Below are positions 2,191-53,796 of a stretch of DNA of 64,000 nt, piece after piece. The notes beneath the pieces were generated by a model. The model ran no database searches, was not told the DNA's origin, and saw only the letters and a program-made list of their open reading frames with translations. How positions within the stretch are numbered: the first letter of the stretch is position 1; each line of letters opens with the position of its first letter. This DNA is from Lonicera japonica. Its lineage: Eukaryota > Streptophyta > Magnoliopsida > Dipsacales > Caprifoliaceae. The position numbers and the translations under genes are program-made. The stretch covers positions 25,383,601 to 25,447,600 of the forward strand of contig CM038470.1 of the NCBI GenBank assembly GCA_021464415.1. The letters run 5' to 3'.

Positions 2191-5100
2191 CTAATCTACT
2201 CGAGCGCGCTTTGACACACTCCCACTGTCACCCGAGCCCTCCTCGGGAGTAAGATCAATTATTGGGACGTCCTGAGGGGGAGGAACTACAGCCTGAGAAG
2301 GCCCCGTCGATTGAACGGGAGCCGTGAGACGAATCACCGAGGACCGTGAGCGCCTGGAAGTCCAACTACTGCTCCTTCGAGACTCCGTTCGGGCGCGAGA
2401 GAAAGTCAAGGGGTCGTCCGCCCGTAGAGAAACATTGATCGCCCTTTGATAGTCACGCATATACACCGTAGGGTCTCGACCAACAAACTAGAGAAGGTTC
2501 CAGTTGTAGAGGTACTGGGCATAGAGGGCTCTTAGGTCCGCCACACGAACATTTACCCGCTGTAAAAGACATAAAAAAATAAAATTAGCACATTTAAGAT
2601 AAACAGATATAAAAGATCATAAAAAGAAAAAAACTATGTACCTCATCACCAATGCGACCGCTCAAGTAATCAAAAGTATCATCAGGAAGGGCATACTTGG
2701 GCACCGTGTAGCGACGAAGACTAGCGCCGACGTAGGTGATGTCCTAGGGAAGCGGCGGTATATCAACTAGAGAAGCAGACAAACCAGCCGAAACAACCGT
2801 GAAAATAGACCCACCCTTCTCGCGGATCGAGAATAAGGGAGGCCGAGAAGAAGAGCCACCGAGACCTGGAGATCGGGTCGGAGGGCCCATGATCCTCGAC
2901 GAAAGATGGGTCAAAGTAGCATACGTACGAACACCTGGAGGATCGCAATAGCTGTCGCCCTCAAAGGCGGGACCCAACTAGAAGGAGAAGCCACCGCAGT
3001 AAGAGGGGTCCGCCCAAACTGCTCGTAGTCAGTCCAAAAATCCTTGGGCGCCCATGACCTCTCTGAAAAGCTTGCTCATCCTCTCTCAGCAGCCTCAGCA
3101 TCGTCAAAAATGAACCTCGGAGATACCGATGGACCAGTAAGAAACTCAAAACCCTCAGCATCAGCACGTTGCTCCTCCATAGGCGTTATATGAGGTGGCT
3201 ACTCAGGAATCGCCGTCCTCCCACCTCCCTCACCCTTCTCGGGTCTATCCACACCACCACCCTTGGAAGCAGCAGGAACACCCCTCTCTCTCTCGGGGTC
3301 CTCATCATCAGAATCATGAATATTGTCCCTTTGATTAGGGACAAATCGCAGATGTCCCAGGACCGTCCTAGCCAGGTGGGTCTGCCTTCGTATATAGTTG
3401 GGGTTGCCGCCCAACACCCAATACCGCTCGTAAAAAATCTGATCCCGAGTCTCCTTCAGGTCCCTCATCAAGTAGCGAGCAGCGAAAGCAACATAGTCCC
3501 CCTCCTTAACGAACACCTGAAAATCGAGGCCGTCCACCAAAGCCTGCACCATCACCGGGTCGATCTCGCCCGTCTGCCTCATCAGAACTGGTGGAAATAA
3601 CGGAACCTGAGGCCACTGAGCCGGTGTGTGCTGGCGGATAACCCTTTTGCCCAAGTAGAAATGAAGACCGTACTCGTCCCTAATCAGCCGCCTGGTCCTC
3701 GAGGCGGTCAAAGCACGGCCATATCCATAATGGAGACCCAGATCACCCCAGGGGGCCCACTCAATCTAAAAAGAGAATAAATTTTATTCAGTTATTTTTA
3801 TTTTATTATTATTATTATTATTTTAAAAAAACTAGAAAGTACTTACATGCTCCTCCAACAAGTCATGAATCGCAGCAACTCCGGTATACGTAAAGAGCCC
3901 TGTAGTTCCCCGCTGTGAACTGGCGGAGAAGGGAAAACTAATCCTTGTTCTCAACGAGGAGATCTACCTAGGCACGACCTAGGCGGGTGTAGGCCACGAA
4001 CTAACTCTGAAAGAAGAAGAAGACATAAAGAATATTAGCAACAATTAGCGGATAAAATGTAAAGACTCAAGATAAGATAAGGGGCAAAAATATATACCTC
4101 CCACAGCAAAGAAAAACCCTTGAGGTTCAGGGCCAAATGAATAGAGACCTGGTCTATAGCATCATAAAGGATAGTTAGAATGAAGCTGCCTTAGTTATAA
4201 TCAAACATGATGCTAAAGTCTCGGATATAGGGCAGCCATCAGAGATGGGCCGCGTCCCCCCCACGAGCCTCGAACAAATCGTGAAACATAAGCAAGAAAA
4301 AAAATCGGGCACACTGGCGCGCCTCCTGTCTGGTCATCGGCACTCCTAAAGCAGCCAATTGAGCTCTCTCTGTCGCCAATCGTATAATCAAGACAGCCTG
4401 GGGTAACGTATCACCGGAACTCCGTCACTCCGAGAACCATCTTAATGCGCCAACAATACCCTCTGTTGTGAGACGCAAGGGAACGTCAATCTGGATAGGG
4501 ACCCCCCGAAGGAATCCCAGTTAGAGCAAATAAGTCTAGGGGGTCATCCTCATCTTTCTTCAGCTCCAGTGAAAGGTATGGGTGGTGTCCCACCAATGGG
4601 TAGCCAGCGCCAACACCAGGACTGCTGCTCTAGATACCCGCTCCGGTAGGGCATCAAAAAGGGAACCAAAAAGAATCGCAAGGAGCAACTCCTGGACAGA
4701 GGCCGGCGCCTGTCGCCACTCTAAAGAATTGGTGTTGGGAGAACCCCAACCTCGGCCAACCCACTGCAGGCAACAAAAAAGATACGTATATATAAGTATA
4801 GGGTTATCGGGGTAAGTTATGTAATTTTGTAAACCTGAGGGCATTTTGGTGTAATTATGAGAGATATAGGGTTATGGAGGTAAATTATGTAATTTTTTAA
4901 ACTTGAGGGTATTTTAGTGTAACTATGAGAGATATAAGGTTATCGGAGTAAATTATGTAATTTTGTAAACCTGATGGTATTTTGGTGTAATTATGAGAGA
5001 TATAGGGTTATGAGGGTAAGTTATGTAATTTTGTAAACCTGAGAGTATTTTGGTGTAATTATGAGAGATATAGGGTTATGGGGGTAAGTTATGTAATTTT

Positions 5101-6200
5101 GTAAACTTCAGGGTATTTTGGTGTAATTATGAGAGCTATAGGATTAACGGGGTAAATTATATAATTTTGTAAACCTGAGGGTATTTTGGTGTAATTATGA
5201 GAGATATAGGGTTATGGGGGTAAGTTATGTAATTTTCTAAACTTGAGGGTAGTTTAGTGTAACTATGAGAGATATAGGGTTAGGAGGATAAATTATGTAA
5301 TTTTGTAAACCTGAGGGTATTTTGGTGTAATTATGAGAGATATAGGGTTATGAGGGTAAATTATGTAATTTTTTAAACCTGAGGGTATTTTGGTGTAACT
5401 ATGAGATATATAGGGTTATATAGGTAAATTATGTAATTTTCTAAACCTGAAGGTATTTTAGTGTAACTATGAGAGATATAGGGTTATAGGGGTAAATTAT
5501 GTAATTTTTTAAACCTAATGGTATTTTGGTGTAATTGTGAGAGATATAGGGTTATGAGGGTAAATTATGTAATTTTTTAAACTTGAGGGTATTTTGGTGT
5601 AATTATGAGAGTTATAGGGTTATAAGGGTAAATTATGTAATTTTCTAAATCTGAGGGTATTTTGGTGTAATTATGAGAGATATAGGGTTATGAGGGTAAA
5701 TTATATAATTTTTTAAACCTAATGGTATTTTGGTGTAATTATGAGAGAAATAGGGTTATGAGGGTAAATTATGTAATTTTTTAAACCTGAGGGTATTTTG
5801 GTGTAATTTTCTAAAAACTAAGGGTACCTTGGTGTAAAAATTATAAGAGTTTTAGGGTAATAGGGGGAAATTGTGTAAAATTTCTAGGGGCATTATTGTA
5901 AAGTATGTGTTCTCTAAAAAATCGGATAATATTGTCAAAGTAAACATGTGTACTAAACATGAGAATTATTTGAAACATGCAGGAAACGACAGAGATAATG
6001 AATAAATAAACAAATATAAATACAAAAAATGAAGGATTTCCAAGAAAACATACTAGAGACCGTCGACGGATCTCATGTGAAATAGGCTCCATCAAGAGCC
6101 AAAGAACGTCCGAGACTGGAGCAGCCGGGGTATCATCTCAGTAGACCACCGCGGTCCACCCCATCCTCGCCGTACCAGTCAAGGTCCGCCCAGTCATCAT
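2191..6200 (-). pseudogene. antisense extra gene B of the gypsy element: intron-containing plant mobile domain (PMD)-like gene, decayed
   Basis: Five exons can be placed on the minus strand: 6200-6054, 4763-4098, 4006-3847, 3765-2642 and 2559-2191. All junctions are GT-AG and phase-compatible where checked; three introns are only 81-91 bases and the first is 1290. Exon 2 has ALATHWWDTTHTFH followed, one base out of frame, by DPLDLFALTGI. This is the hallmark of PF10536 plant mobile domain proteins (a W-x-THTFH stretch then a PLD-x-x-x-LTG stretch). Exon 4 has APWGDLGLHYGYGRAL and YERYWVLGG. The last exon is basic and Ser/Arg-rich, ending SKRARVD. The copy is dead: TGA in exon 1, a frameshift near 4573, three TAGs and a frameshift in exon 3, and more stops in exon 4. 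PMD proteins occur both as host nuclear silencing factors (MAIN/MAIL1) and in transposons. Which type gave rise to this one cannot be told here. Confidence 0.7.
4801..5860. repeat. tandem array, 68-bp monomer, about 15 copies
   Basis: A monomer starting GGGTTATNGGGGTAAATTAT and ending GAGAGATATA repeats with an exact 68-base period; starts at 4801, 4869 and 4937 were checked by counting. Copies differ by point changes, and the right edge is degenerate after about 5815. The array lies entirely inside intron 1 (4764-6053) of antisense gene B. Hypervariable, tandemly repeated 3' regions are known for Tat-type gypsy elements and can seed satellite DNA. Confidence 0.9.
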
Positions 6201-6488: not shown

Positions 6489-7388
6489 GTTTGTCCTTTC
6501 CCCTGATTTTTTGACCGTTGTCTTATTTTTTCTCCTGCAGAAATACTTCAAAGAAACAATTTTTGAAGCCTTTCTATATACCGCACACTCATGGTGAATA
6601 TCCCAAGGAAAAGACTTCAAAGTCATCTCTCCGAAAATCGCGAGAACAAAATACGTCGGTTGAAGGAATCTCTGATCTCCCAAGGAACTGAAACCATTAA
6701 TGAGAAAGGAAAATATCAGAATAAGACGGGAATAGAAAAAATTGAAAGAATGGAAAAGAGAAAAATCCCGCATAAGTGCCCAGAGTGAGCGAAAGAAACA
6801 GAAATGTAGAGTGACAGGGAGAGCCACACTAAAAGTGACAGATAGGCTAAAACCGGCTCAGGGCTTCGTTTTGGGTGAGTAAGGCTCCTGATCACGACAA
6901 AGGGATAAAAAGACTCTTGGTCAAAAACAGAGGAGGTCAGGAAGTCTTTCCCAAAAGAAGGAGAAATAAGGACATCAAAAGGCAGAAAATGATGTGGGCC
7001 CACAAAGTGAAAAGATGAGAACTAAAGAGATCAAAGATCAGGGATCAGAGATTTCCCTTTCAAGCAAATTTTCTTTTCAGCACGATACAGAAGAGATAAC
7101 TTGGAAATAAACCTTCGAATCATCACTCTGCGAAGAATAGAAGAAATCTGAAAACTGGTTTCTAAGAGAAGTGTTCTCACTCGAGAAAACAAATAAGAGA
7201 AAAAATTCAGAAAGATACGAAAAAATAAAGGACATCCGGATAAAAATTAAACTCCTGATGAGCTTCTTTCACTCACACAAAATCTCCCTCTCTCACTCTA
7301 GCAGTTGAAAAGAGACAACCGTTTTCGCCAGAGGCAAAAACACTTACAAAAGCCTTCCCAGAGGCAATTTTCTTTCTTTCTACATATC
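6489..7388. other. gypsy 3' region without recognisable genes
   Basis: Purine-rich on the plus strand, with only short ORFs lacking recognisable motifs. It lies between the promoter of antisense gene B and the 62-bp array and is best read as part of the element's long 3' untranslated region. Confidence 0.5.
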
Positions 7389-7840
7389 AAAAGCCCTCTC
7401 AGAGAGGCAAAATGGAGCAATGGTAGTCCTCCCACATGAGGCGAGAAGAACAAAGCCCTCCCAGAGAGGCAAAGTGGAGCAATGGTAGTCCTCCTACATG
7501 AGGCGAGAAGAACAAAGCCCTCCCAGAGAGGCAAAGTGGAGCAATGGTAGTCCTCCCACATGAGGCGAGAAGAACAAAGCCCTCCCAAAGCGGCAAAGTG
7601 GAGCAATTGTAGTCCTCCCACATGAGGGGAGAAGAACAAAGCCCTCCCAGAAAGGCAAAGTGGAGCAATGGTAGTCCTCCCACATGAGGCGAGAAGAACA
7701 AAGCCCTTCCAGAGAGGCAAAGTGGAGCAATGGTAGTCCTTCTACATGAGGCAAAAAGAACAAAGCCCTCCCAGAGAGGCAAAGTGGAGCAATGGTAGCC
7801 CTCCCATCTGAGGCAAATGGAGCAAGTGAAAAGCCCTCGA
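7389..7840. repeat. tandem array, 62-bp monomer, about 7 copies
   Basis: A monomer beginning CAAAGCCCTCCCAGAGAGGC and ending CGAGAAGAA repeats every 62 bases; starts at 7451, 7513, 7575 and 7637 were checked, with further copies to about 7830. Because 62 is not a multiple of three, the open minus-strand frames across it rotate through the same peptides and are artefacts of the repeat. It sits about 150 bases before the 3' LTR. Confidence 0.9.
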
Positions 7841-7995
7841 AAGAGGTAACGAGGTAATGTAAGCCCTTTCTGGAGGCATTCACAAACACTTTTTGCATAC
7901 GCACACTTCCTTAGAGTTCTTGCGGGAGCCATGGACTACGGTCTCTTCCAGTGGCCTCAATTCCTTGTAAGCAATGAGCTTGAGTCGAGAGGGTC

Positions 7996-8827: not shown

Positions 8828-10233
8828 TGTTGACTTGAAAGTCATTAATCTTGTTTTAATAATAACAATAAACTTAATCTTGTGTAATTTAACCTAGTTG
8901 ATGTTTTAAGTTATAGCCACACAATATTGATCACACGTGGATTTAACCGAAAAGCCGGAATCAAGATCATTCTTCTACAAAGTATTGCAATCAAAGTTTT
9001 ACATCTCACACATCTCTTGTCAACACATCCTCAATGAGATTTCTAAAGTACAATGAGCCAAGGAAGAAAAGAAACGAAGAATCAAACAAAGCCCTCGAAG
9101 ACTCGTTATTGCATATGTGAGTGAGTGCTTTAGTTTCCATGTAAAGATTCTCATTTGATCATCATAGCTCATACAATATTTCAATATTATAAGATTGATC
9201 AAATCAAAAGTTGAATCAAGTTTCCTTGAGAAAATCTTATTTTTGGGAAAAATCGTTTTGGAACAAATATTTTTTAAATATTAAACAAACTCATTTCGGA
9301 GCTCTTTTCATTATAGAAGTCTTAGATACTCATATTTAAGTATCCCCTTGCTTCAAAATTGATTTTTGAGCTAATTTGCAAAAGTATGAAAAATGGGATT
9401 TTTGGTCAAACTGGCAGCAGACCAGAGGAGACCATCAGTCGACTGATGAGCTTTGCTCAGTCGACTGATGGCCACTCAGTCGACTGATGAGCATTGCTCA
9501 GTCGACTGATGGCCCAGAAACTAGCCGTTGGAGTTATGATTTTTTACCATTTTTGGTACCAAACTTTTACCAACTCCCTCCAAACGGCTATATGTTGTCT
9601 TAGACTATATATACACCCTCTAAGACTTATTTAAACACTCTTGAATCATTCTTACACTATTCTATTCATCTACACTCAATATTCAAAGATTCAAGAACAT
9701 GTTCCTTTGATCAATCATCTTTATTTTGAGCTATACTTTATTGATCAAATTAGATATCTCTTAGTGTGAGCCTAAGTTGTAATCTTCATACACTATAGAG
9801 CTATTGTACATTGGTGTTAGTCACCAAATCATTTCTTTCAAACATTAAGAGAGGTTTATCTCTTAAGATAGCAAGAGAGTATTCTTGTGTGAGTATTGAG
9901 AGAATTCCAATACTTGTAAGAGTGTGTGAGAAAGATACACTTGTAGAGGTCGGAAGGAGATCGGTTATAGTGGAATTTCTCGGGGTACTAACCGAGCGCG
10001 GAGTAGGGGCTAACAAGCCAAATCGTGTGGACAAAAAGTCTTTGACTTTGATCGGTTTAATCTTTCTATCTCTTGAACTTTTATTGTGTTATTTGCACCT
10101 TGTGATTGGATTTATCTTTGCTTATTGTTTGGTTGATTGATATAGACATCAAATATTTTTAAATTGATTTTAAAAATCCCATTAAGTTTTAAAAACCCTA
10201 TTCACCCCCCTCTAGGGTATTTTTCGACCTACA
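8828..10233 (+). repeat. copia 5' LTR (1406 bp)
   Basis: Starts TGTTGACTTGAAAG and ends CCGACCTACA. It carries two units of a 41-base palindrome repeat against three in the 3' LTR, and lacks a 14-base string present in the 3' LTR near 17670. Confidence 0.9.
9435..9613 (+). promoter_or_regulatory. copia 5' LTR promoter: four palindromes plus TATA box
   Basis: The perfect palindrome TCAGTCGACTGA starts at 9435, 9457, 9476 and 9498, spacings 22, 19 and 22. TATATATA follows at 9606-9613. In the 3' LTR the copies start at 17113, 17135, 17154, 17176, 17195 and 17217 (the last mutated), so one 41-base unit has been gained or lost. Repeated palindromes upstream of the TATA box are a reported Sirevirus LTR feature. 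Confidence 0.75.
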
Positions 10234-10311
10234 AAACTTACTTAGGAACTAAAATCTGGCATATCCCATCTTTTTCATAGACCACGATGTGTCTGATAAA
10301 ACTCCCCTCAA
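10234..10311 (+). other. 78-bp copy of the downstream gypsy-LTR flank inside the copia 5' end
   Basis: These 78 bases (AAACTTACTTAGG to CTCCCCTCAA) are repeated at 17966-18043, where they are the target duplication plus the gypsy LTR right of the insertion. Here they sit between the 5' LTR and gag, where a primer-binding site is expected. Confidence 0.85.
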
Positions 10312-10960
10312 GGGGACTTGGAGTGATTCCGAAGAAGGTGAGTCCGATGCCGACTCTAGCGACGAGAAGACGGCAAATCTTTGCCTTATGGCAAGAGACG
10401 ATGAGGTAGACTATATTTATGATTTATTTAGTGATGATAATGTTTCTATAAATCATGATGCTCATGATGAAAATGACTATGATGAGTTATATGAAATGTT
10501 TGAGGAATTGCATAGCAAATTTGAAAATCTTTCTAAGAAGTTTGTAAGCCTCAAAAAGGAGAATTTGATAATTTCTAACAAGTGTGAAATTTTTGAAAAA
10601 GAAAACATGGTTTTGAAAAATGAAATCAACACTTTGAAGAAAGAAAAGGAAAAGGAAATTCCAAATTCACTTGTAGTAGAAAATGTCAAATTAAAAGATC
10701 AAGTGGATGATCTAACCAATAGCTTAGCCAAATTCACCAATAGTAGAGATAATTTGGATAAACTATTAGGAATGCGAAGGTGTGTATTTGACAAAGCCGG
10801 ACTGGGTTACAATCAAATTGACAACCAAAAGGATTACAAATTTTTTTAAAACATATATACCTCATTATCCCATTCATCTTTGCTCATATTGTGGTAGAAA
10901 TACTTATTATGTGGATCATTGTTTCTATAAAAATGAAGGTTTCCCTAAGAGGAAGCTTGC
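10312..10960 (+). pseudogene. copia gag, C-terminal part only
   Basis: The frame opens inside gag at GTWSDSEEGESDADSSDEK and TANLCLMARDDEV, typical of the acidic C-terminal half of Sirevirus gag. A Lys/Glu-rich coiled-coil stretch follows (about 10490-10750). A frameshift in a T/A run at about 10840-10850 moves the reading into the pol frame, where the zinc knuckle is CSYC then four residues, Tyr, four residues, Cys. The expected His is replaced by Tyr, a CAT to TAT change, so zinc binding is lost. The N-terminal capsid part is absent. The ATG at 10289 lies in the intruding 78-base segment and is not a native start. Confidence 0.8.
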
Positions 10961-13900
10961 TTGGGTTCCAAAAGGAACCATTATGTTTGCTAACCTAAAG
11001 GGACCCAACACATTTTGGGTACCAAAGGAGAAGTTACTTAAAGTCATGGTGTAGGTGTGCTTGAAAGCCAAGGGTAGCAAAACCAAGTGGTTCTTGGATA
11101 GTGGTTGCTCAAAACACATGACGGGAGACAAGAACAACTTCTTAAGTCTAATTCCCAAGCGTGGAGGGAATGTGACTTTCGGGGACAACGGCAAGGGCAA
11201 AATCATCGGTATAGGTAAGGTTGGTAAGCATTCTACTTGCATTGATAATGTTCTATTAGTTGATGGTTTGAAGCATAATTTACTTAGCATTAGTCAATTA
11301 TGTGATAAGGGCTATGAAGTTATTTTTAAATCCGATCGTTGCATTGTTAAGAATGTTAGTGATGATTCCATTCTACTTGTTGCATATAGAACTAACAATG
11401 TGTATACTCTTAAGCTTGATGATTTATCTCAACAAGATGTTAAATGCTTATCCGCTATAAATGATGTATCTTGGTTGTGGCATAGGAGACTAGGACATGC
11501 TAATATGGATTTAATTCATGCTTTGTCTAAGAAAGAGCTTATTAAAGGATTACCTAAAACCAAATTTGTTAAATATAAAATTTGTGATGCATGTCAACTC
11601 GGTAAACAACACAAATCCTTTTTCAAGGCAAAAAGAGATATTACTACATCTAGACCACTTGATATGTTGTATCTTGATTTGTTTGGTCCTATTTCGGTTG
11701 CTAGTCTAGGTGGCAAATTGTATACTCTTGTTATTGTTGATGATTACACTAGACTCACTTGGGTGTTCTTTCTCACTCACAAAAGTGAAACTCCACATGT
11801 CTTTGCTAAATTTTGTAGAAAAGTTCAAAATGAAAAAGGTGTCTCTATTGTGCATGTTCGTAGTGATAGAGGTAGAGAATTTGACAATGTTGATATTGAG
11901 AACTTTTGTGATGAGCATGGTGTTGATCATAATTTTTCGGCACCTAGAACTCCTCAACAAAATGGTGTTGTTGAGAGGAAAAATAGATCTCTTCAAGAGA
12001 TGTCTAGGATTATGCTTAATGAACATTCTTTACCAGAGTATTTGTGGGCGGAAGCCGTTAACACCGCATGCTATGTGATTAATCGTACTATTATTCATAA
12101 AAAGTTAGATAAGACATCTTATGAGTTATGGAATGACAAGAAACCAAATATTGCATATTTTAAGGTTTTTGGTTGCAAATGTTTTATTTTGAATGATCGT
12201 GATCACTTGGGTAAATTTGATGCTAAATCCGATGAAGGAATTTTTCTTGGGTATGCCACCAATAGTAAATCATATAGAGTTTATAACAAGAAAAGTTTGG
12301 TAGTCCAAGAATCTATGCATGTTGTATTTGATGAGTCAAATCCTTTCTCACCCAAAGTATATTCCGATGATGATGTTGAAATTATCCAAAAGATTTTGGA
12401 TATTCAAATTAATGATACATCTAAGGAAGAACCATCGAGTGCTCAAGCTCCTCCTAAGGAGTTAGAAAACAAAACCGAGCAAGACTCAAATGATTTGCCT
12501 AGGAGTTGGAAATTTGTGTCCAACCACCCTATTGATCAAATTCTTGGAGAGCCATCGAGTAAAGTTATGACTAGATCTTCCTTAAGAAATGTATGCAATA
12601 ATGTGGCATTTGTTTCTCAATATGAGCCTAAAAATATTATTAAAGCCGAACAAGATGAATCTTGGATGATGGCTATGCAAGAAGAGCTCAATCAATTTGA
12701 GAGAAACAAAGTGTGGACACTTGTTCCCAAACCTAGTGATTATACTATTATAGGTACTAAATGGGTATTTCGTAACAAAAAGGATGAAAGTGGTGTAATT
12801 GTTAGAAATAAAGCTAGACTTGTTGCCCAATGATACAATCAAAAGGGTGGCATTGATTATGAAGAAACATATGCACCCGTAGCTCGTTTAGAAGCCATTC
12901 ACATGTTACTTGCTTATTCGTGTTTTAAGAATTTCAAATTATATCAAATGGATGTGAAAAGTGCTTTTTTGAATGGTTTTATTGATGAGGAAGTTTATGT
13001 AAAACAACCTCCCGGTTTTGAAAATCATGTTTATCCGGATTATGTGTTTTAAATTATCAAAAGCATTATATGGTTTAAAACAAGCACCTGGAGCATGGTA
13101 TGATAGACTTAACTCATTTTTGATTAACAATGGTTTTGTTAGAGGTAAAATTGATACTACCTTATTTATCAAAAATCATGACAATGACATGCTACTTGTA
13201 CAAATCTATGTTGATGATATTATATTTGGTTCTACTAACGAAAATCTTTGCAAGGACTTTTCCTCATGTATGCAAAAGGAATTCGAAATAAGCATGATGG
13301 GATAAATGAATTACTTCCTTGGATTACAAGTGAAGCAATGCAAAAAAGGCATCTTCATCAATCAAGAGAAGTATATGAAGGAGTTATTGAAGAAATTCGA
13401 CATGGAAGGTGCCAAATCCATGAGCACTCCTATAAGTTCAACACTGAAGCTTGACAAAGACGAAATAGGTAAAAGTGTCGACATCAAGAAATATCGAGGT
13501 ATGATCGGTAGTTTATTATATTTGACGGCCTCTAGGCCGGATATTATGTTTAGTGTATGTCTTTGTGCACGATTCCAAGCGGATCCTAAAGAGTCACATT
13601 TAGTTGCCGTTAAAACGAATTTTTCGTTATCTTTCCGGTACTAGTTCCTTGGGTTTGTGGTACCCAAGAGAGAACTTATTTGACTTGATTAGTTATTCCG
13701 ATGCAGATTTTGCCGGTTGCAAAATCGATAGGAAAAACACTAGTGGCACTTGTCATTTCCTAGGACACGCACTAGTATCTTGGTCAAGCAAGAAACAAAA
13801 CTCGGTGGCCCTTTCAACGGCCGAAGCCGAATATGTGGCGGCCGGAAGTTGTTGTGCTCAAACTTTATACATTAAACAACAACTAGAAAACTTCGGATTA

Positions 13901-14158
13901 AATCTTAGCCACATTCCCATTAAATGTGACAACACAAGTGCTATTAGCTTGACCAAGAACCCCATACAACACTCACGTACTAAGCATATTGAGATAAGAT
14001 ATCATTTTATTCGTGATCATGTGCAAAAAGGTGACGTTGATATTGAATTCATTGGCACCGAATCGCAACTTGCGGATATTTTCACTAAACCACTTCTCGA
14101 TGATCGCTTTAGCATTATTCGACGTGAAATTGGTATGACTAGAGCATGTGATATCTAG
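10961..14158 (+). pseudogene. copia pol (protease, integrase, reverse transcriptase, RNase H), inactivated
   Basis: Domains in order: aspartic protease with WFLDSGCSKHMTG (about 11085), integrase zinc finger HRRLGHANMD (about 11485), integrase core with DLFGPI, SDRGREFDN and PQQNGVVERKNR (about 11670-12000), then RT with VDDIIFGST (about 13213), then RNase H with SDADFAGC and ALSTAEAEYVAA (13695-13850), ending ADIFTKPL and a stop at 14158. Inactivating changes: TAG at 11052-11054, TGA at 12831-12833, a one-base insertion near 13048, TAA at 13303-13305 and a one-base insertion near 13616. No correction is offered. It is similar to intact Sirevirus pol along its full length, so decay is recent. 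Confidence 0.9.
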
Positions 14159-14389
14159 CTGACCAAAATTTTCATGTATATTGATCCTTAATGCTTGTCT
14201 CTAAAGCATACAATATTGTGCAAATCATTTGGCTTAATATGAATTAAGCATTTTTATACTTGGTACTTCCATTACATGTTATTTGATGTACTAATATCAT
14301 TTTTGTAGCTCAAATGCTGTAAAGTTACTATTTCTAGGTGTTTAGGGCTTACAATGCTCAAAACAAAAAAGTCAGGGCAGATTGGGTGA

Positions 14390-14522
14390 TCAGTCGACTG
14401 ATCAAGGACCATCAGTCGACTGAGGCCTCATCAGTCGATTGAAGGATGTCCATCAGTCGACTGAGCAGTGCAGGACAGCAGTTACTCTATTTCTTCTATT
14501 TCCCCTGTTTTTCTATTTATAT
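14390..14522 (+). promoter_or_regulatory. candidate promoter of the copia extra ORF: four palindromes plus TATA-like box
   Basis: TCAGTCGACTGA or a one-mismatch form starts at 14390, 14412, 14431 and 14453, spacings 22, 19, 22, exactly as in the 5' LTR. A TATTTATAT string lies at about 14514-14522, and a pyrimidine-rich leader runs from there towards the ATG at 14885. Transcription has not been shown. The inference is that LTR promoter sequence was copied upstream of the extra ORF, or the reverse. Confidence 0.6.
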
Positions 14523-14884
14523 CTCTCTTCTCCATTTCGAGATATATCACACCTCAACCCTTCCATACCTCAAGAACAATCATCCATTCTCTATTTTCCT
14601 CATCAAAACTCTATTTTTCTTCCACTTCCAACATCAAATCAACCCCAAATCTCATATATTTCATCTCAAATCTCTCAAACCTTAACCCTAGCCACTATTA
14701 TACATTCCTCAACCAAAAATCTCTACCAAACACCAAATCTTTTTACCAAAACTCATCCCACTATTCCATTTAACCAATTTCCTAAATATTCCCTTTAATC
14801 ACACATATTTTCACCCCAAAATCTTCAAATTCCCGAAGAACCCTAATTTTTCAAAATATATTTCTTTCACCAATCTTCATCGAA

Positions 14885-16135
14885 ATGTCTCAACCATCTC
14901 GCTCACGTCGCCCACGAAAGAGCGTACCACAAGTGGGTTCATCATCGGCACAACCACCTCAAGCACCACTACCACCTTTGTTCATCTCAAACCAAGCCGA
15001 AGCAAATTTCAACAACGACTATTCGACACGGGCTATCATCGAAGGTAAACAATTCAACTTTCAATTATTCGCTTCCAATGGTTTGAATGTTGCTGGATTG
15101 TTTCAAAATCAAGAGATTATAAACTTTTTGAATATTCGTGAAAATGTGTACCCTCTGCTCATACGGCTATTCTATGCTAACCTACATCATCCGGTTCATG
15201 ACAATGGACGTCCCAACAAGGCCCGTCTTGTTACACTTTTGAATGGGCAACGAATCAGTTTTAACAAAGCCGAATTAGCCGAAATATTCGGATTTCCCGT
15301 TGATAATGTAACGGAAGTTTCATCCAATTTTGGGGATCTTCTAGGCTTTAATAGGGAAGCTGCCAAAGGAATTTTACTTAAATGTAGATTTCGTAATATG
15401 CAAGGAGAAATCAAAGCCGTAATGCTCAAACTCGATGCTCGTCTCATACATTCAATCCTAGGGTATTCGATTATCCCAAGGCGTGGTAGCCGTGCTTCAC
15501 TCAATGCCTTGGAACTATTTTTGGTATGGGCAATTGTCATGGGACATAGGTTGGACTATGCTAGTCTAATGTTCCATTATCTCCTTGAGATCACCAATCG
15601 AAAAAGGTAAGGGTTGGTCTATGGAATGGCCCTCACTCAACTGTTTAAATTCTACAATATCCGACTCGAGGACGAGGTCGATGTTATCATTCCCACTAGT
15701 GAGGAGACATATAGCGCCAAGGTGATTCGGTTGATGAAATACAACTTGGTTTATGGAAAATGGACTCCTAATGATCCTAGAGATAGAGATGCAAGTGGTG
15801 ATGAAAGTGATGGCTCATCCGAAGACGTGGGTGAAGAAGAAGAAGAAGAAGTAGGAGGAGACAGTTCCGAACTCCCTGAACCCACTACCTCTCAAGGCCA
15901 TAGCCAATCCTCAAATGCCGCCTTGCTTCAAGCAATTCAAGGCTTATTGGGTCAAGTTCAAGCTCTCTCAACTAACATGACGAACCGTTTTAATCGCATT
16001 GAAGATCGTCAAAGAGCTCATAAAGAAGCCTTTCTTTGCTACCATCCGGAGCATGTCTTTCCGGTTTGGAACCCGTATCAAGTTGATCAAGGTTGGGGTC
16101 AATGGCCACAAGACCCTCAAGAGCCACAAGAATAG
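14885..16135 (+). pseudogene. copia extra ORF, putative plant transposon protein (Transposase_32-like), one in-frame stop
   Basis: The frame starts MSQPSRSRRPRKSVPQV and stays open to 16135 except for TAA at 15608-15610 (codon 242 of 417). Residues about 38-150 (IIEGKQFNF, LLIRLFYANL, ISFNKAELAEIFGFP) resemble the putative plant transposon protein domain PF20167. The part after the stop has an acidic run of Glu (about 15825-15855), a short coiled-coil candidate (LLQAIQGLLGQVQAL) and a W/P/Q-rich tail. Function is unknown. Some Sireviruses carry a post-pol ORF called env-like, but I see no signal peptide or membrane segment here. It is less damaged than pol beside it, with one nonsense change and no frameshift. 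Confidence 0.65.
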
Positions 16136-16162: not shown

Positions 16163-16505
16163 AACAAAGGGGGAGAAATAAGTGTGTTAGAGTGCTTGGT
16201 ACACACTCTCTTTGAGTTTTATTAGTTTAACTATGAACTTCTTTTATGTTTCAAGTTGTTTTATGTTTGGACTTCTAAGGTTTTCCATTCCTTGTTTTAA
16301 CTTATGCCTAACTCTAAGTATTTGGTTTGAACTTAATTTGAAGTTTCTTTATTATGATCTGTACATTTACTTATGCATGCTTGCTTTATTCCATATTCTC
16401 TTTACTTCATAGTTTGAGGGGGAGTTTTCCCATTGAGAAAACTCAACTAATGATCTTAATCACAAACACACATTAATTTATTGTCATCATAAAAAAGGGG
16501 GAGAT
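16163..16505 (+). promoter_or_regulatory. polypurine tracts of the copia element
   Basis: AAAAAAGGGGGAGAT at 16491-16505 abuts the 3' LTR and is the plus-strand primer site. Two related tracts lie upstream, ACAAAGGGGGAGAAA near 16165-16179 and GAGGGGGAG near 16415-16425. Several such tracts before the 3' LTR are characteristic of Sireviruses. Confidence 0.75.
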
Positions 16506-17965
16506 TGTTGACTTGAAAGTCATTAATCTTGTTTTGATAATAACAATAAACTTAATCTTGTGTAATTTAACCTAGTTGATGTTTTAAGTTATAGCCACAC
16601 AATATTGATCACACGTGGATTTAACCGAAAAGCCGGAATCAAGATCATTCTTCTACAAAGTATTGCAATCAAAGTTTTACATCTCACACATCTCTTGTCA
16701 ACACATCCTCAATGAGATTTCTAAAGTACAATGAGCCAAGGAAGAAAAGAAACGAAGAATCAAACAAAGCCCTCGAAGACTCGTTATTGCATATGTGAGT
16801 GAGTGCTTTAGTTTCCTTGTAAAGATTCTCATTTGATCATCATAGCTCATACAATATTTCAATATTATAAGATTGATCAAATCAAAAGTTGAATCAAGTT
16901 TCCTTGATAAAATCTTATTTTTGGGAAAAATCATTTTGGAACAAATACTTTTTAAATATTAAACAAACTCATTTCGGAGCTCTTTTCGTTATAGAAGTCT
17001 TAGATACTCATATTTAAGTATCCCTTTGCTTCAAAATTGATTTTTGAGCTAATTTGCAAAAGTATGAAAAATGAGATTTTTGGTCAAACTGGCAGCAGAC
17101 CAGAGGAGACCATCAGTCGACTGATGAGCTTTGCTCAGTCGACTGATGGCCACTCAGTCGACTGATGAGCTTTGCTCAGTCGACTGATGGCCACTCAGTC
17201 GACTGATGAGCATTGCTCAGCCGATTGATGGCCCAAAAACTAGCCGTTGGAGTTCTGATTTTTTACCATTTTTGGTACCAAACTTTTATCAACTCCCTCC
17301 AAACGGCCATATGTTGTCTTAGACTATATATACACCCTCTAAGACTTATTTAAATACTCTTGAATCATTCTTACACTATTCTATTCATCTACACTCAATA
17401 TTCAAAGATTCAAGAACATTTTCCTTTGATCAATCATCTTTATTTTGAGCTATACTTTATTGATCAAATTAGATATCTCTTAGTGTGAGCCTAAGTTGTA
17501 ATCTTCATACACTATAGAGCTATTGTACATTGGTGTTAGTCACCAAATCATTTCTTTCAAACATTAAGAGAGGTTTATCTTTTAAGATAGCAAGAGAGTA
17601 TTCTTGTGTGAGTATTGAGAGAATTTCAATACTTGTAAGAGTGTGTGAGAAAGATACACTTGTAGAGGTTTGATCTTCACCCGGAAGGAGATCGGTTATA
17701 GTGGAATTTCTCGGGGTACTAACCGAGCGCGGAGTAGGGGCTAACAAGCCGAACCGTGTGGACAAAAAGTCTTTGACTTTGATCGGTTTAATCTTTCTAT
17801 CTCTTGAACTCTTATTGTGTTATTTGCACCTTGTGATTGGATTTATCTTTGCTTATTGTTTGGTTGATTGATATAGACATCAAATATTTTTAAATTGATT
17901 TTAAAAATCCCATTAAGTTTTAAAAACCCTATTCACCCCCCCTCTAGGGTATTTTCCGACCTACA
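16506..17965 (+). repeat. copia 3' LTR (1460 bp)
   Basis: Starts TGTTGACTTGAAAG and ends CCGACCTACA, followed by AAACT (17966-17970). It is longer than the 5' LTR by one 41-base palindrome unit and 14 bases near 17670. Confidence 0.9.
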
Positions 17966-17970
17966 AAACT

Positions 17971-18514
17971 TACTTAGGAACTAAAATCTGGCATATCCCA
18001 TCTTTTTCATAGACCACGATGTGTCTGATAAAACTCCCCTCAAAGAGTTCTAATTCCATATTAAATTAGTCCTGATACAAGATCCGAACTTTTCCAAAGT
18101 AATTAAAACACGAGAAACCCGTCATTATCTGAGGAAATGATACGGGAAACTCTCTCTTAAATAAAAGGCTTTTGTCACTTGTATTTACATCTTTCAAAAC
18201 AAAAGGTCGGATCACAGAACACAAATGTTTTCATCCCTTTCCACGTTTTTCCCAAAATTATGGTTTTTCATTTAGGAAGTAGTAGACTGTCAGTAAAAGT
18301 ATCTAAGTTCTTCAACATAAAATGAACATATAAAAGACCACTAGAGACCGAAAGGGTGGAACAGGTGCTTAACACCTTCCCAATCCATAACATAGTTTTC
18401 GAACCCTATAGAATCCTGATTTCCTAGACAAATGTGTAAAGAAAGTCTTATCTGTAGCTTTTCTCTTACACAACTATTTTGTCTGTTTTCTCGTAAAACG
18501 TACTGGCGACTCTG
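17971..18514 (+). repeat. gypsy 3' LTR, right part, followed by a primer-binding-site-like motif
   Basis: Continuation of the LTR interrupted at 8827. It includes R/U5-like sequence (GGAACAGGTGCTTAACACCT near 18358, resembling Tat LTRs). At 18504-18514 it runs into TGGCGACTCTG, which looks like the Tat/Ogre primer-binding site normally found after a 5' LTR. The exact right end of the LTR is not certain. Confidence 0.5.
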
Positions 18515-46322: not shown

Positions 46323-46697
46323 GGCCTGTTTGGTGGTTTTTTAAAAAAAAAAAAAAAAATTTAATTTAAAATAAAATAAATTTTATTTTTATACTTTTCA
46401 ACATTTATTTCACTTTATTTTTTCTTTCTAATTTTTTTTTAAAATATCATAACTTTAAATCTAAAAATTAAAATTAGATAAAAATATATATATTTAAAAC
46501 CTACTCGTCTAGATTTATAAGATAAGATCCATTATGACTATTTTTTGAAATCTTTTTATAAGATTTTTTAGTTGGTTGAAAAAAACTCAAACAAAAACCA
46601 AATTCACATTTCAACATACTTCCAAATTCTACCAAACACCAAATTTTAAAACTCAACTTAAAAACTCAACTCAAAATATCAACCAAACACCACCTTT
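46323..46697. repeat. dispersed MITE-like repeat, copy 2, upstream of ATG8
   Basis: Related to 44911-45248 along most of its length, with ends CCTGTTTGGTGGTTTTT and CCAAACACCACC. It lies just upstream of the likely ATG8 first exon, so this family has entered both the promoter side and an intron of the same gene. Confidence 0.6.
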
Positions 46698-47628
46698 CGG
46701 TTTTGGTCAGGTAGAAATTGTCATACCTCAAACTCAAATTTTATAGTTTGGTTTTCACTTGATTCAGTTTCGGTTTAATTCGGTCTTATTAGATTTTTTT
46801 TATATTGTTAAAACTTTAGTTAAAAATTACTCTAAAAATAAAAAATAGCACTAAAAGGCAGTACAAAACTTGTATTCCCTATTGTATATTAATCCTCCTA
46901 ATTTGAAAGCTAATTAAATTGACTTTCGTTTTGATAAGACTTCTATGATAATAATATAGATTCACTCAAAAGGTGCTACAAAAAAAATATATAATATCAC
47001 ATGTATTTATTTTAATTATTACCTTATATAGATTCACTCAAAAGGCATTACAAAAGAAATATATAATGTTATGTGTATTTATTTTAATAATTATCTTAAG
47101 TAATTATGTGTAAATATAAATAATTCATAGGCTTGGATCATTTGTAACATAAATGTTGTAAGAAAACCTCCTTTTTTTCCCCAATGTGTTGTAAGACAAC
47201 TTAAGTAATTACTTTAAATTAGCAAAATCTTTTTTTAAAAAAGATTCAATTTTTTCTATCCAATTCGGGTACCCCCAACCCATACCGACCCGAATCAATC
47301 AGTTTCAGTTTTTTTTGTGTTCAAAAAATTTCCGATCACAATGGATCGGTTCGGTTCGTTCGTTCGGTTTTCAGATTTCTGACAACACCCCTAGTTTGAA
47401 TTTAGTGCTTAAGGTTGGTTTTGTGAGTCGAGTACAAATTTATATATTCAATTTTTTAATGATTGAGTGAAGTATTGTTAAATTTATATTTCATGTTTAA
47501 TTTGGTATTTAAAAATTGAGTAATATACACTTTATTTGATGATTAAAAATTAAATAAAAAATAGTATTATTAAATATTGTGTAAGATATATATATATATA
47601 TCACCACCCTTTTCAAATATATAGAAAA
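46698..47628. other. intergenic region
   Basis: AT-rich; no gene seen. Contains a local duplication around TATAGATTCACTCAAAAGG (about 46955 and 47028). Confidence 0.4.
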
Positions 47629-48409: not shown

Positions 48410-49964
48410 TGTTGACCTAAGGTCTTAATCTTATTTTGATAATAACAATAAATTAATCATGTGTAATTTAACATGTTTCTTGATATAAGTATACAGTTCA
48501 TTTACCTGGAAAATTCAAGAAAAACATGACAAGGATCACTCTTTCACTATTCGATCATTGGATAAGACAAGGAAGATCAAATCTCTCAATACAAATCATG
48601 AAGCACAAAGAATCAAAAGACTATATGAAAAGCTTCAAGGACAAAGCTTCAAATGAAGATCAATCTGAAGAAACAAATCAAAGCATTCGAAAACTCGCTA
48701 ATTCAGTAATTGAGTGAGTGCTTAAGATTTATGTAAAATTACTTTATTGATCAAATCCCTATAGCTCAAATGTATTCATGCATATTTTAAAGATTGATTC
48801 AAACAAGCTTGAAATTGAATTTATTTGAAAGACGTTATTTTACAAAGACCGAGTTTCAAAATAAATTCATATTAATTTTAAATGATCATATTTTAAGCGC
48901 TAATAAAAATAGGTATCTTAGAAACATATCTTTGAGGTTCAAAAATCATTAAAATTTTATTTTGAACTAAATTGTTAAATTACAAAAATATTTTTATTTT
49001 ACATTTAAAATTCGCTCAATTTTTGCCCAGTTTTGATCTAACGGTAAGATGGAGGCCTTCACGAACTCCGATCATTTTAAAATTTTTATAGTAGTTAGAC
49101 AACATCTTTTGGCACTTTTGACTAAAATTTGAGCATGATCCAACGGTCTAATTGGGAGAAATTATCAAAACAAATTTGAATTTTTTTATCAAAACTAGCT
49201 GTTGGAAAGTTTGAAAATGTATACCTTGAAGCCAAAACCTTTCTTAATCATCCCCAACGGCCATATGGTTTTGCAAGCTATATATATGAGGTCTTAGACA
49301 TGTTTTAACACACTTGAATTATTCTACAAACTCATTTTACATATATACAAAATTATTCAAGTATTCAATTCATTTCATTGATCATATTCTTCATTTTTGA
49401 GCTATATGCTTTGATCAATCTTGACAACTTTAGTGTGAGCTTTATTTGTAATCTTCAAATACACTTGAGAGTTATTGTATTGGTGTGTATCACCACAAAT
49501 AATTCATTATTCATTTCAAAAGAGAATTTGTCTCTTTGTAGAACAAGAGAGCATATCTTGTGAGAAGTGTAGTGTGTATAAGTACATTGTGAGTGTTGCG
49601 TGCATAACAACATTTGTATTGAGGTTTGATCTTCACCCGAAGAAGATTGAATAGTGAAAATTCTCGGGGAACTAACCGAGCGGGGACGTATGGTTGAAGA
49701 ACCCGAACCGCGAGGACAAAAAGTCTTAAGCTTCAAATTGGTTCAATCTCTCTAACTCAAGCTCTCTTTTTATTGCTAAATTATTTATTGTATTTTGAAA
49801 TTGCTTATTTGCTTATCTTGGGATTAATTACTTGAAATTGATTATTTTCTTGATATTGTTGCTTAGCTAAGTTGCTTTACTTAAATATTTTAAAAATATT
49901 TTAATTCCGCATTAAGTTTTTAAAACCATATTCACCCCCCTCTAGGGTTATTTTCCGACCAACA
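48410..49964 (+). mobile_element. Sirevirus-type solo LTR (1555 bp)
   Basis: Begins TGTTGACCTAAGGTC and ends TCCGACCAACA, flanked by AATCA at 48405-48409 and 49965-49969. The right third matches the LTRs at 8828-10233 and 16506-17965 in order (CTCGGGGAACTAACCGAGC, GGACAAAAAGTCTT, CACCCCCCTCTAGGGT). It lacks the TCAGTCGACTGA palindromes, so it is a related but distinct family. It left no internal region, as expected from LTR-LTR recombination. Confidence 0.9.
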
Positions 49965-52274: not shown

Positions 52275-53796
52275 GGGCAATCAACAATTTTAACCCCAAA
52301 GTTTGGGGTCATTTTAACTTAAACCGTTATTTCAATTTTTACAATGTCAACACTAAAGTTTTATAATTATTGCAATCCAACCCAACCTTTCTCTTCTGTT
52401 AATATATAACTAACAGCGCTAATGTGGTGCTGATGTAGTTGTCCGAGCTGGCGCTGACGTGGATGTTGCTACTATAGGCATCAGCAATTTTAACTCCAAA
52501 GTTTGGGGTAAGTGGTAATTTAAACCCTATTGTTTCAATTTTTTAATGTCAACACCAACGTTTCATAATTGTTCCAATCCAACCCAACCGTTCTCTTTTG
52601 CTAATATACAACTAACGGCAGCTAATATACAACACACCTTTTCGTTGGCGAGTGAGGAACACACGCTTACGTCAAATCATTTAAGCCATATTTTTTAGTC
52701 ACAATCCTAAGTCCCTCTATAATTATTGTTTGTTGGCGATCAATAATTGTTGCATTAAAATTGGTGATCATAATTTTTTAAGTCACAATCCTAAATATAC
52801 AACACACCTTTTCGTTAGCGATCATAATTATTACATCAAAATTGGGTTAAGGTTGATGGTGATCACCTTACTTTTCGTGGTTGTGGGACTCAGTTTAAGA
52901 ATGGTGACCTTCATTACATTGATTTTATCAAGAAGGTTAATCTTTTTCATTTTTAGTTCTGTTATGTTTCTTTCTTGATCGTATGTCTTTTTATTTTATT
53001 TTATTTTTCTGGTTCCCATTTTATCTATAAATTTTTTTTAATCCTATAATTTTTAATTCTTTCATTTTAGTATTTTGCATCATCTTTTCTCCTCAAGGAT
53101 TATCTTTCTATATGTGCTCATGAATATATTATGTCTATTTCCTGGTTTCTGGGATTAAAGAAAGGTTGTTTTTTTTTGTGTAATGTAGACACTTCCTGAT
53201 ATTGCATAGGAGAAAAAAAGTAGGGTAATATTGAATGTTGGGTACCAAGAGATTGCCTTACTCCAGTAAGGTCTTTGATATAGTCCATTGTGCTTGCTGC
53301 AGAGTCCCTTGGCACATTGAATGTGACATTTTCTATCTTATTTCACGAACAATAATTATAGAGGGACTTAGAATTGTGACTCAAAAATGTGGCTTAGATG
53401 ATTTGACGAAAACGTGTATTCCCCACTCGCCAACGAAAAGGTGTGTTGTATATTAACCGCCGTTAGTTGTATATTAGCATAAGAGAACGGTTGGGTTGAT
53501 TGTAACAATTATGAAACATTGGTGTTGACATTGAAAAAAAATTGAAACAACGGGGTTTAAATTACATCTGACCCCAAACTTTGAAGTTAAAATTGTTGAT
53601 GCTCATAATAACAACATTCAAGTCAGCGCCAGCTCGGACAACCACGTCAGCGCCGTTAGTTGTATATTAACAAAAGAGAACGGTTGGGTTGAATTGCAAC
53701 AATTATAAAATTTTGGTGTTGACATTGTAAAAATTGAAATAATGGGGTTTAAGTTAAAATGACCCCAAACTTTGGGGTTAAAATTGTCGATTGCCC
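52275..53796. mobile_element. Pack-MULE carrying PMT methyltransferase pieces
   Basis: TIRs of about 450 bases (52275-52731 and 53349-53796) start GGGCAATCAACAATTTTAAC and end GTCGATTGCCC. They are flanked by a perfect 9-base duplication ACATATATC at 52266-52274 and 53797-53805. Each arm itself contains a duplicated block (TTTGGGGT, CAACCCAACC, TAACGGC occur twice per arm). The 617-base interior holds host coding sequence and no transposase. Confidence 0.88.
52849..53330 (+). pseudogene. captured fragments of a plant PMT-type (DUF248) putative methyltransferase
   Basis: Two pieces in the plus direction. At 52849-52935 the frame reads KVDGDHLTFRGCGTQFKNGD then LHYIDFIKK. At 53235-53330 it reads LGTKRLPYSSKVFDIVHCAC then CRVPWHIE. 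Both match the SAM-dependent methyltransferase domain of plant PMT proteins (GGTQFxxGxxHYIDFI and GTxRLPFPSxxFDxxHCARC), Golgi enzymes thought to methylate pectin. The glycine-rich SAM-binding loop that should lie between them is absent. HCARC has become HCACC, and the frame runs into the right TIR. Catalysis is not possible from this piece. Confidence 0.82.

Follow-up and report, generated by a model that had tools for sequence, protein, structure and literature searches.

Palindrome arrays in both LTRs and before the extra ORF of a rearranged Sirevirus-type retrotransposon of Lonicera japonica: a candidate internal promoter

Introduction

How is the extra gene of Sireviruses, located after pol, expressed, and does it encode an envelope protein at all? 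These old questions are raised again by a 64,000-nucleotide stretch of Lonicera japonica DNA (assembly GCA_021464415.1, contig CM038470.1, positions 25,383,601 to 25,447,600 of the forward strand), which we call the window and whose own coordinates are used below. The window contains a rearranged Sirevirus-type copia retrotransposon with an extra open reading frame (ORF) downstream of pol. Short palindromic boxes occur in both of its long terminal repeats (LTRs) and again in the linker that separates pol from the extra ORF. The boxes, their spacing, a TATA-like sequence, the composition of the putative leader and close relatives of the extra ORF are directly seen. In our best reading, to which we give a probability of roughly 0.57, the extra ORF would have an internal promoter tied to the regulator of the LTR.

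What is said here of earlier work is limited to the cited passages of each paper. In 13 Sireviruses the LTRs were found to carry palindromic repeated motifs (RM) that precede a conserved TATA box (Bousios et al. 2010, PMC2829016). All nine of the RM-bearing Sireviruses that carry ENV have boxes in the linker too, and 77 of the 79 linker copies stand before ENV; the RM-bearing Sireviruses without ENV (four of four) have no linker boxes (PMC2829016). The boxes before ENV were taken as support for the internal promoter that Peterson-Burch and Voytas had hypothesized in 2002 (PMC2829016), and the MASiVEdb paper names stop-codon suppression or an internal promoter as the means by which the extra gene is expressed (PMC3414828). 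A preliminary description of the locus had presented an internal array before a post-pol ORF as unreported. Because RM boxes before ENV were already published for nine ENV-carrying Sireviruses (PMC2829016), this claim to novelty fails, even though the box string TCAGTCGACTGA itself does not occur in the literature searched. The arrangement is of an already described Sirevirus type; what is added here is a G-poor, ATG-free stretch and eight in-frame stops.

Palindrome arrays in the LTRs and in the linker

The arrays and the extra ORF are located as follows.

9435..9509, + strand: 5'-LTR array; four exact TCAGTCGACTGA boxes at 9435, 9457, 9476 and 9498
14390..14464, + strand: internal array in the pol/extra-ORF linker; exact boxes at 14390, 14412 and 14453, one-mismatch box at 14431
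17113..17228, + strand: 3'-LTR array; exact boxes at 17113, 17135, 17154, 17176 and 17195, sixth box at 17217
14885..16135, + strand: extra ORF, PF20167 (Transposase_32)-like by Pfam and protein searches; in-frame TAA at 15608-15610

The exact palindrome TCAGTCGACTGA occurs 12 times in the window, and 100 dinucleotide-shuffled versions average 0.00 occurrences; this rules out a chance origin of the arrays. With mismatched boxes counted, there are four boxes in the 5' LTR, four in the linker and six in the 3' LTR. The box at 14431 is TCAGTCGATTGA and differs from TCAGTCGACTGA by one mismatch; the one at 17217 has two. Spacing is 22/19/22 in the 5' LTR and in the linker, and 22/19/22/19/22 in the 3' LTR. 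A motif scan confirmed the box coordinates and the 22/19/22 spacings that the preliminary description had given for the 5' LTR and the linker. It had also taken the boxes of these two sets to be identical, which is true of three internal boxes and not of the one at 14431, and it had omitted the 3'-LTR array of six boxes. The LTR arrays (9435-9516 and 17113-17235) differ by one 41-bp unit, four boxes versus six, which means that box pairs are gained or lost as whole units.

On the helix, the four boxes of a set fall nearly on one side: with 10.5 bp per turn, the mean resultant for 0/22/41/63 is 0.913, a value that 0.8% of random spacings of 15-30 bp equal or exceed. This agrees with the earlier proposal that spacings near two helical turns would let a dimeric factor sit on one DNA face. 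Since the internal and LTR sets have a common spacing, the phasing does not amount to two independent tests.

We propose that the boxes would be the RM palindromes of a Sirevirus-type copia retrotransposon. Those of the LTR would serve the genomic-RNA promoter as its upstream binding sites, and those of the linker would play the same role for a second promoter, situated after pol and before the extra ORF. Both transcripts would be set by a single host factor, probably a dimer. Binding of this factor, promoter activity, the start site and translation of the extra ORF are what we infer from the DNA. Because the extra ORF and pol are both broken in this copy, the site would reflect the behaviour of the family and not a product of this copy.

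A TATA-like sequence and a G-poor, ATG-free stretch

Downstream of the boxes, the following features were found.

9605..9613, + strand: 5'-LTR TATA box CTATATATA, by motif scan
17324..17332, + strand: 3'-LTR TATA box CTATATATA, by motif scan
14514..14523, + strand: internal TATA-like sequence TATTTATATC, beginning 50 bp past the last internal box
14482..14881, + strand: G-poor stretch, 400 nt with 7 G; the proposed leader would be the portion past ~14540

As had been described before, a TATA-like box follows both kinds of array: TATATATA begins 97 bp past the last box in both LTRs, and TATTTATATC stands in the linker. The presence of TATTTATA 50 bp downstream of the internal array speaks for an internal promoter, but the site was chosen after looking and the window is AT-rich, and therefore it is weak-to-moderate evidence. 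Transcription would start about 25-35 nt past 14514.

The G-poor, ATG-free stretch appears more telling than the TATA-like box. It begins 17 nt past the last box and stops 3 nt short of the start codon of the extra ORF, and no ATG occurs in 14465-14884. It is the top G-poor segment of the + strand, with a log-odds score of 53.7 against a maximum of 13.7 in 100 first-order Markov shuffles, and 345 nt with at most 6 G are found nowhere else on either strand of the window. A promoter between 14390 and ~14545 would yield an ATG-free leader without splicing. The resulting mRNA would have a long, near-G-free leader, and since this leader is without ATG, scanning ribosomes would get to the ATG of the extra ORF at 14885.

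The LTRs have long ATG-free runs of their own. The two longest on the + strand are one of 708 nt from 17311, which extends slightly beyond the LTR, and one of 588 nt from 9699; runs of this length were found in 0 of 100 shuffles. Past its TATA box the 3' LTR is likewise ATG-free, in line with the promoter reading, with 694 nt to the next ATG, which is beyond the LTR end; the 5' LTR has an ATG at 9699, 93 nt past the TATA box. The near-ATG-free portions after the TATA box are 17311-18019 and 9699-10287, and ATG counts there are 0 versus 11.8 expected (17314-17967) and 1 versus 11.6 expected (9606-10233).

Readthrough and splicing

Stop-codon suppression was described for SIRE1, a Sirevirus that likewise has an extra ORF after pol (Havecker and Voytas 2003, via PMC2829016). 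In the present element, too, the extra ORF is in frame with the last piece of pol, but eight in-frame stops lie between them. Therefore, readthrough of the SIRE1 type from pol is rejected for this copy.

Splicing is the main rival explanation. An RNA started in the LTR would be spliced to an acceptor located in the linker; the boxes would then not be promoter sites, or would be LTR enhancers. We consider this unlikely, although it is the strongest of the rivals. The splice scan covered the acceptor side, namely every AG site in 14159-14884 (n=25), and in 8 of the 25 the preceding 20 nt contain at least 12 pyrimidines. The following candidate has a branch-like sequence.

14300..14308, + strand: possible 3' splice site TTTTTGTAG, with branch-like CTAAT upstream

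A message spliced at 14308 would, however, keep three ATGs before 14885 together with the hairpin-forming array. Another candidate is the GAG ending at 14541, which is preceded by 17 pyrimidines in 20 nt and followed by no ATG up to 14885. It is one of four acceptors with a good tract and no later ATG, the others being AAG (14574 and 14838) and TAG (14691), and none of the four has a branch-like match. GAG and AAG acceptors are rarely used. Splicing has been reported for barley Bagy2 in a cited passage, and splice acceptor sites were predicted for Bagy2 and Athila (PMC2829016), yet splicing would leave the boxes before the extra ORF unexplained.

Relation between the internal array and the LTR array

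The internal array had been called a copy of the LTR array, and this description does not hold in any simple form. Internal and LTR boxes are identical at 47 of 48 bases. In the three spacers, 6 of 27 bases match when both arrays are read directly (permutation P 0.67), and 13 of 27 when one is reverse-complemented (permutation P 0.013, uncorrected, with two orientations tried); without the two bases after each box, the latter value becomes 7 of 21 (P 0.30). Boxes differ from spacers with a Fisher P of 4e-7 in the reverse complement, which is the better orientation, or 3e-12 in the direct one. TG directly follows all ten of the ten LTR boxes, and CA directly precedes three of the four internal ones, so the internal boxes are oriented oppositely. 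A plain forward duplication of the LTR array is rejected by the direct spacer identity, and an inverted duplication finds weak support after removal of the flanking bases. The internal array would go back either to an ancient inversion or to a separate origin; either way, boxes and spacing are preserved and the intervening DNA is not. Identical spacing and near-identical boxes with diverged spacers are as expected if the boxes and their spacing matter and the DNA between them does not.

These comparisons bear on the idea that an old inverted duplication of the LTR array gave rise to the internal one, which would itself be functionless. The better fit of the spacers in reverse complement and the placement of CA and TG agree with it. 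However, spacer likeness is at chance once the flanking bases are left out while the boxes still agree almost completely, and neutral decay would not preserve boxes alone. We regard this explanation as very improbable.

It is also conceivable, although improbable in our view, that the boxes are kept mainly as symmetric CpG/CHG DNA or as hairpin RNA, that is, as a target of small RNAs or methylation, or that they are a by-product of repeat amplification, with no internal promoter role. The arrays are predicted to fold strongly, with energies of -46.7 (internal), -56.6 (5' LTR) and -82.5 (3' LTR) kcal/mol, which are raw values without shuffle control, and LTR palindromes of maize Sireviruses are small-RNA hotspots (PMC5311732, PMC10760457). 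This explanation would not account for the position before the extra ORF, the spacing kept with diverged spacers or the ATG-free leader, and the small-RNA literature, in the passages cited, also ties the palindromes to the cis-regulatory region.

Assessment of the internal promoter

Several observations weigh against an internal promoter. TATA-like sequences are frequent in the AT-rich window: TATAWAW or TATTTATA is found in 8.1% of 60-nt stretches, TATTTATA itself in 0.5%. The distance from array to TATA is 50 bp in the linker versus 97 bp in the LTR. Other G-poor segments also exceed the simple null, namely 46337-46698 on the + strand (score 35.2) and a satellite at 4786-5911 on the other strand (90.5), and an ATG-free run at least as long as the internal one (439 nt) occurred in 22 of 100 shuffles. 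The pyrimidine-rich tract followed by GAG at 14541 is a possible splice acceptor that would give an equally ATG-free leader. In the literature, six more ENV-containing Sireviruses are without RM boxes and have CpG islands there instead, no promoter was conclusively identified in that work (PMC2829016), and a 2020 review has env-like genes transcribed from the 5' LTR promoter (PMC7264820). Finally, DNA of a related element was not found among the viral and prokaryote collections searched. The box pattern gave 0 matches in viral_contigs; the extra ORF gave 2 stretches in viral_contigs and 54 in genome_contigs, none confirmed, and pol gave 1 unconfirmed stretch in viral_contigs. Because these collections hold viruses and prokaryotes, the absence of relatives there says nothing on plants.

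The preliminary description had assigned the extra ORF its own promoter, tied to the regulator of the LTR. The array, the TATA-like box, the near-G-free and ATG-free stretch and the exclusion of readthrough make this proposal the best reading; on the other side, a spliced message is possible, one box differs and the array is no plain forward copy.

The extra ORF

The extra ORF consists of two pieces, 14885-15607 (241 amino acids) and 15611-16132. The first has three relatives at E <= 0.001 among 229 candidates scored: P0001 (417 amino acids), 63% identical over 87% of the piece; P0002 from Lonicera macranthoides, the one match named by organism, 68% identical over 74%, whose gene model has a ribosomal L32e domain in addition; and P0003, 56% identical over 68%. 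P0001 as query gave 3 hits among 3541 candidates and added the distant P0124, which is 24% identical and has PF20167. The second piece corresponds to the C-terminal part of P0001, at 50% identity. Because it has close relatives, an uninterrupted one included, the extra ORF looks like a real gene that is broken here by the TAA. Its PF20167 score is 38.1 bits, below the 45-bit cut-off, and that of P0001 is 45.7, just above it.

No ENV-like transmembrane segment was found. The maxima of hydropathy over 19 residues are 1.25 and 0.98 in the two pieces and 1.13 in P0001, and no value above 1.25 was found in the pieces or in P0001-P0003, by hydropathy alone and with no dedicated membrane or coiled-coil predictor run. 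Since the usual limit for a transmembrane segment is 1.6, the label "envelope" is unsupported for this extra-ORF family; the PF20167 match, together with the lack of a clear transmembrane segment, speaks against it. PF20167 was also reported in the additional ORF of a sunflower Athila element (PMC11728184). With a PF20167-like ORF (14885-16135) in a Ty1/copia element and another in Athila, which is Ty3/gypsy, an exchange of accessory genes between the superfamilies is possible.

Comparison with known systems

Maize Grande is a Ty3/gypsy element. Its gene23 (Gomez-Orte et al. 2013, via PMC7264820 and PMC11963269) is likewise an accessory gene after pol with its own internal promoter in a plant LTR retrotransposon, but it is an antisense gene, unlike the sense extra ORF described here. 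Foamy viruses (PMC7828637) resemble the proposed arrangement in having a second, internal promoter besides that of the LTR; they differ in being animal retroviruses with unrelated sites.

The closest likeness is to the published Sirevirus RM boxes (PMC2829016). There, too, many short palindromes stand upstream of the LTR TATA and of the extra gene, each element has its own box variant in both places, and the argument for an internal promoter is explicit. A CGG-CCG core is found in 12 of the 13 published boxes; it is lacking in ACAATCGATTGT of Tnd-1, as it is in TCAGTCGACTGA of the present element. The published Vitis box CGGTCGACCG and TCAGTCGACTGA have a common GTCGAC centre. A G-poor, ATG-free leader and an opposite orientation of the boxes are not mentioned in the cited passages of that paper.

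Structure of the element

The other parts of the element are as follows.

8828..10233, + strand: 5' LTR (TG...CA), 1406 bp, by repeat families; AAACT on both sides
16506..17965, + strand: 3' LTR, by repeat families; then AAACT
10203..10216, + strand: poly-C signal CACCCCCCTCTAGG near the LTR 3' end, by motif scan
11055..12833, + strand: pol piece with GAG-pre-integrase, integrase core and the start of RVT_2 (copia order), by Pfam
13306-13644, + strand: further RVT_2 piece, by Pfam
13604-14158, + strand: pol end, assigned by position alone (no Pfam match)
16496..16503, + strand: terminal polypurine tract AGGGGGAG, then AT/TG; more copies at 16168 and 16417

Most of the Sirevirus hallmarks looked for are present. 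Pfam gives the domain order of Ty1/copia (Pseudoviridae), with integrase ahead of reverse transcriptase: in the 592-amino-acid pol piece, rve covers 200-300 and RVT_2 starts at 551. The last of the three polypurine tracts (PPTs) begins 10 bp before the TG of the LTR at 16506. At the PPT/3'-LTR junction there is an inverted repeat. Its left arm adjoins the PPT and matches LTR sequence that begins some 27 bp in; the repeat scores 44, and the best of 2000 letter shuffles 40. The poly-C integrase signal near the LTR end, a feature described in PMC2829016, is represented by CACCCCCC at 10203 and 17934; two further copies of this 8-mer lie at 34437 and 49933. A lone CACCCCCCTCTAGG at 49933-49946, outside the element, is possibly a remnant of another one. 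RM boxes come in eight copies or more per element, and here, with one- and two-mismatch boxes included, there are four internal ones and six in the 3' LTR, where they stand upstream of the TATA box; the internal ones are located just upstream of the extra gene. The CGG-CCG core of RM boxes is, as said, absent.

The primer-binding site (PBS) is absent, and the 5' end is rearranged. The Sirevirus PBS junction, CA-ATTGG-TATCAGAGC, was not found: TATCAGAGC is absent from both strands of the window, and 10201-10700 contains no match with one mismatch. The 5' LTR is followed by the same DNA as the 3' LTR, identical at 69 of 69 bases (10234-10302 and 17966-18034), and together with the absence of TATCAGAGC this indicates that the PBS region is missing from this copy. 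AAACT precedes the 5' LTR (from 8823) and follows both LTRs. A tandem duplication of the 3' part of the element with its flank, followed by LTR-LTR recombination, would fit this structure. Most of gag is probably missing as well; the open frame that follows the 69-base flank copy is presumably the end of gag, and Pfam gave no gag match in it. For these reasons, we call the element Sirevirus-type and rearranged. Its LTRs differ at 22 of 1406 aligned sites. For pol, 2201 of the 7988 candidates scored are relatives at E <= 1e-100, and among the matches listed, the best 120 of the 2201, those named by organism are from plants (Vitis, Citrus, Carya and others).

The window also contains other repeats. 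A satellite of 68-bp units at 4729-5912 has 14 register copies and is very C-poor on the + strand, and a tandem array of 62-bp units at 7328-7887 has seven. Four long inverted repeats, with arms of 105-154 nt that are 81-92% complementary, are clustered at 52324-53791.

Implications

A more specific form of the internal-promoter proposal is that two sense-strand transcription units would be run from one palindrome code, the second with a purpose-built leader that is near-G-free and ATG-free. We put this forward tentatively, as a possibility with the odds against it. The element is a compact case for the question of how the extra gene is expressed, since boxes, a TATA-like site and a leader apparently suited to scanning are found together in it. 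If the two-unit arrangement is true and the boxes come with such a leader throughout the Sireviruses that have an extra ORF, the leader would be a new hallmark at sequence level and would settle the mode of expression of their extra gene.

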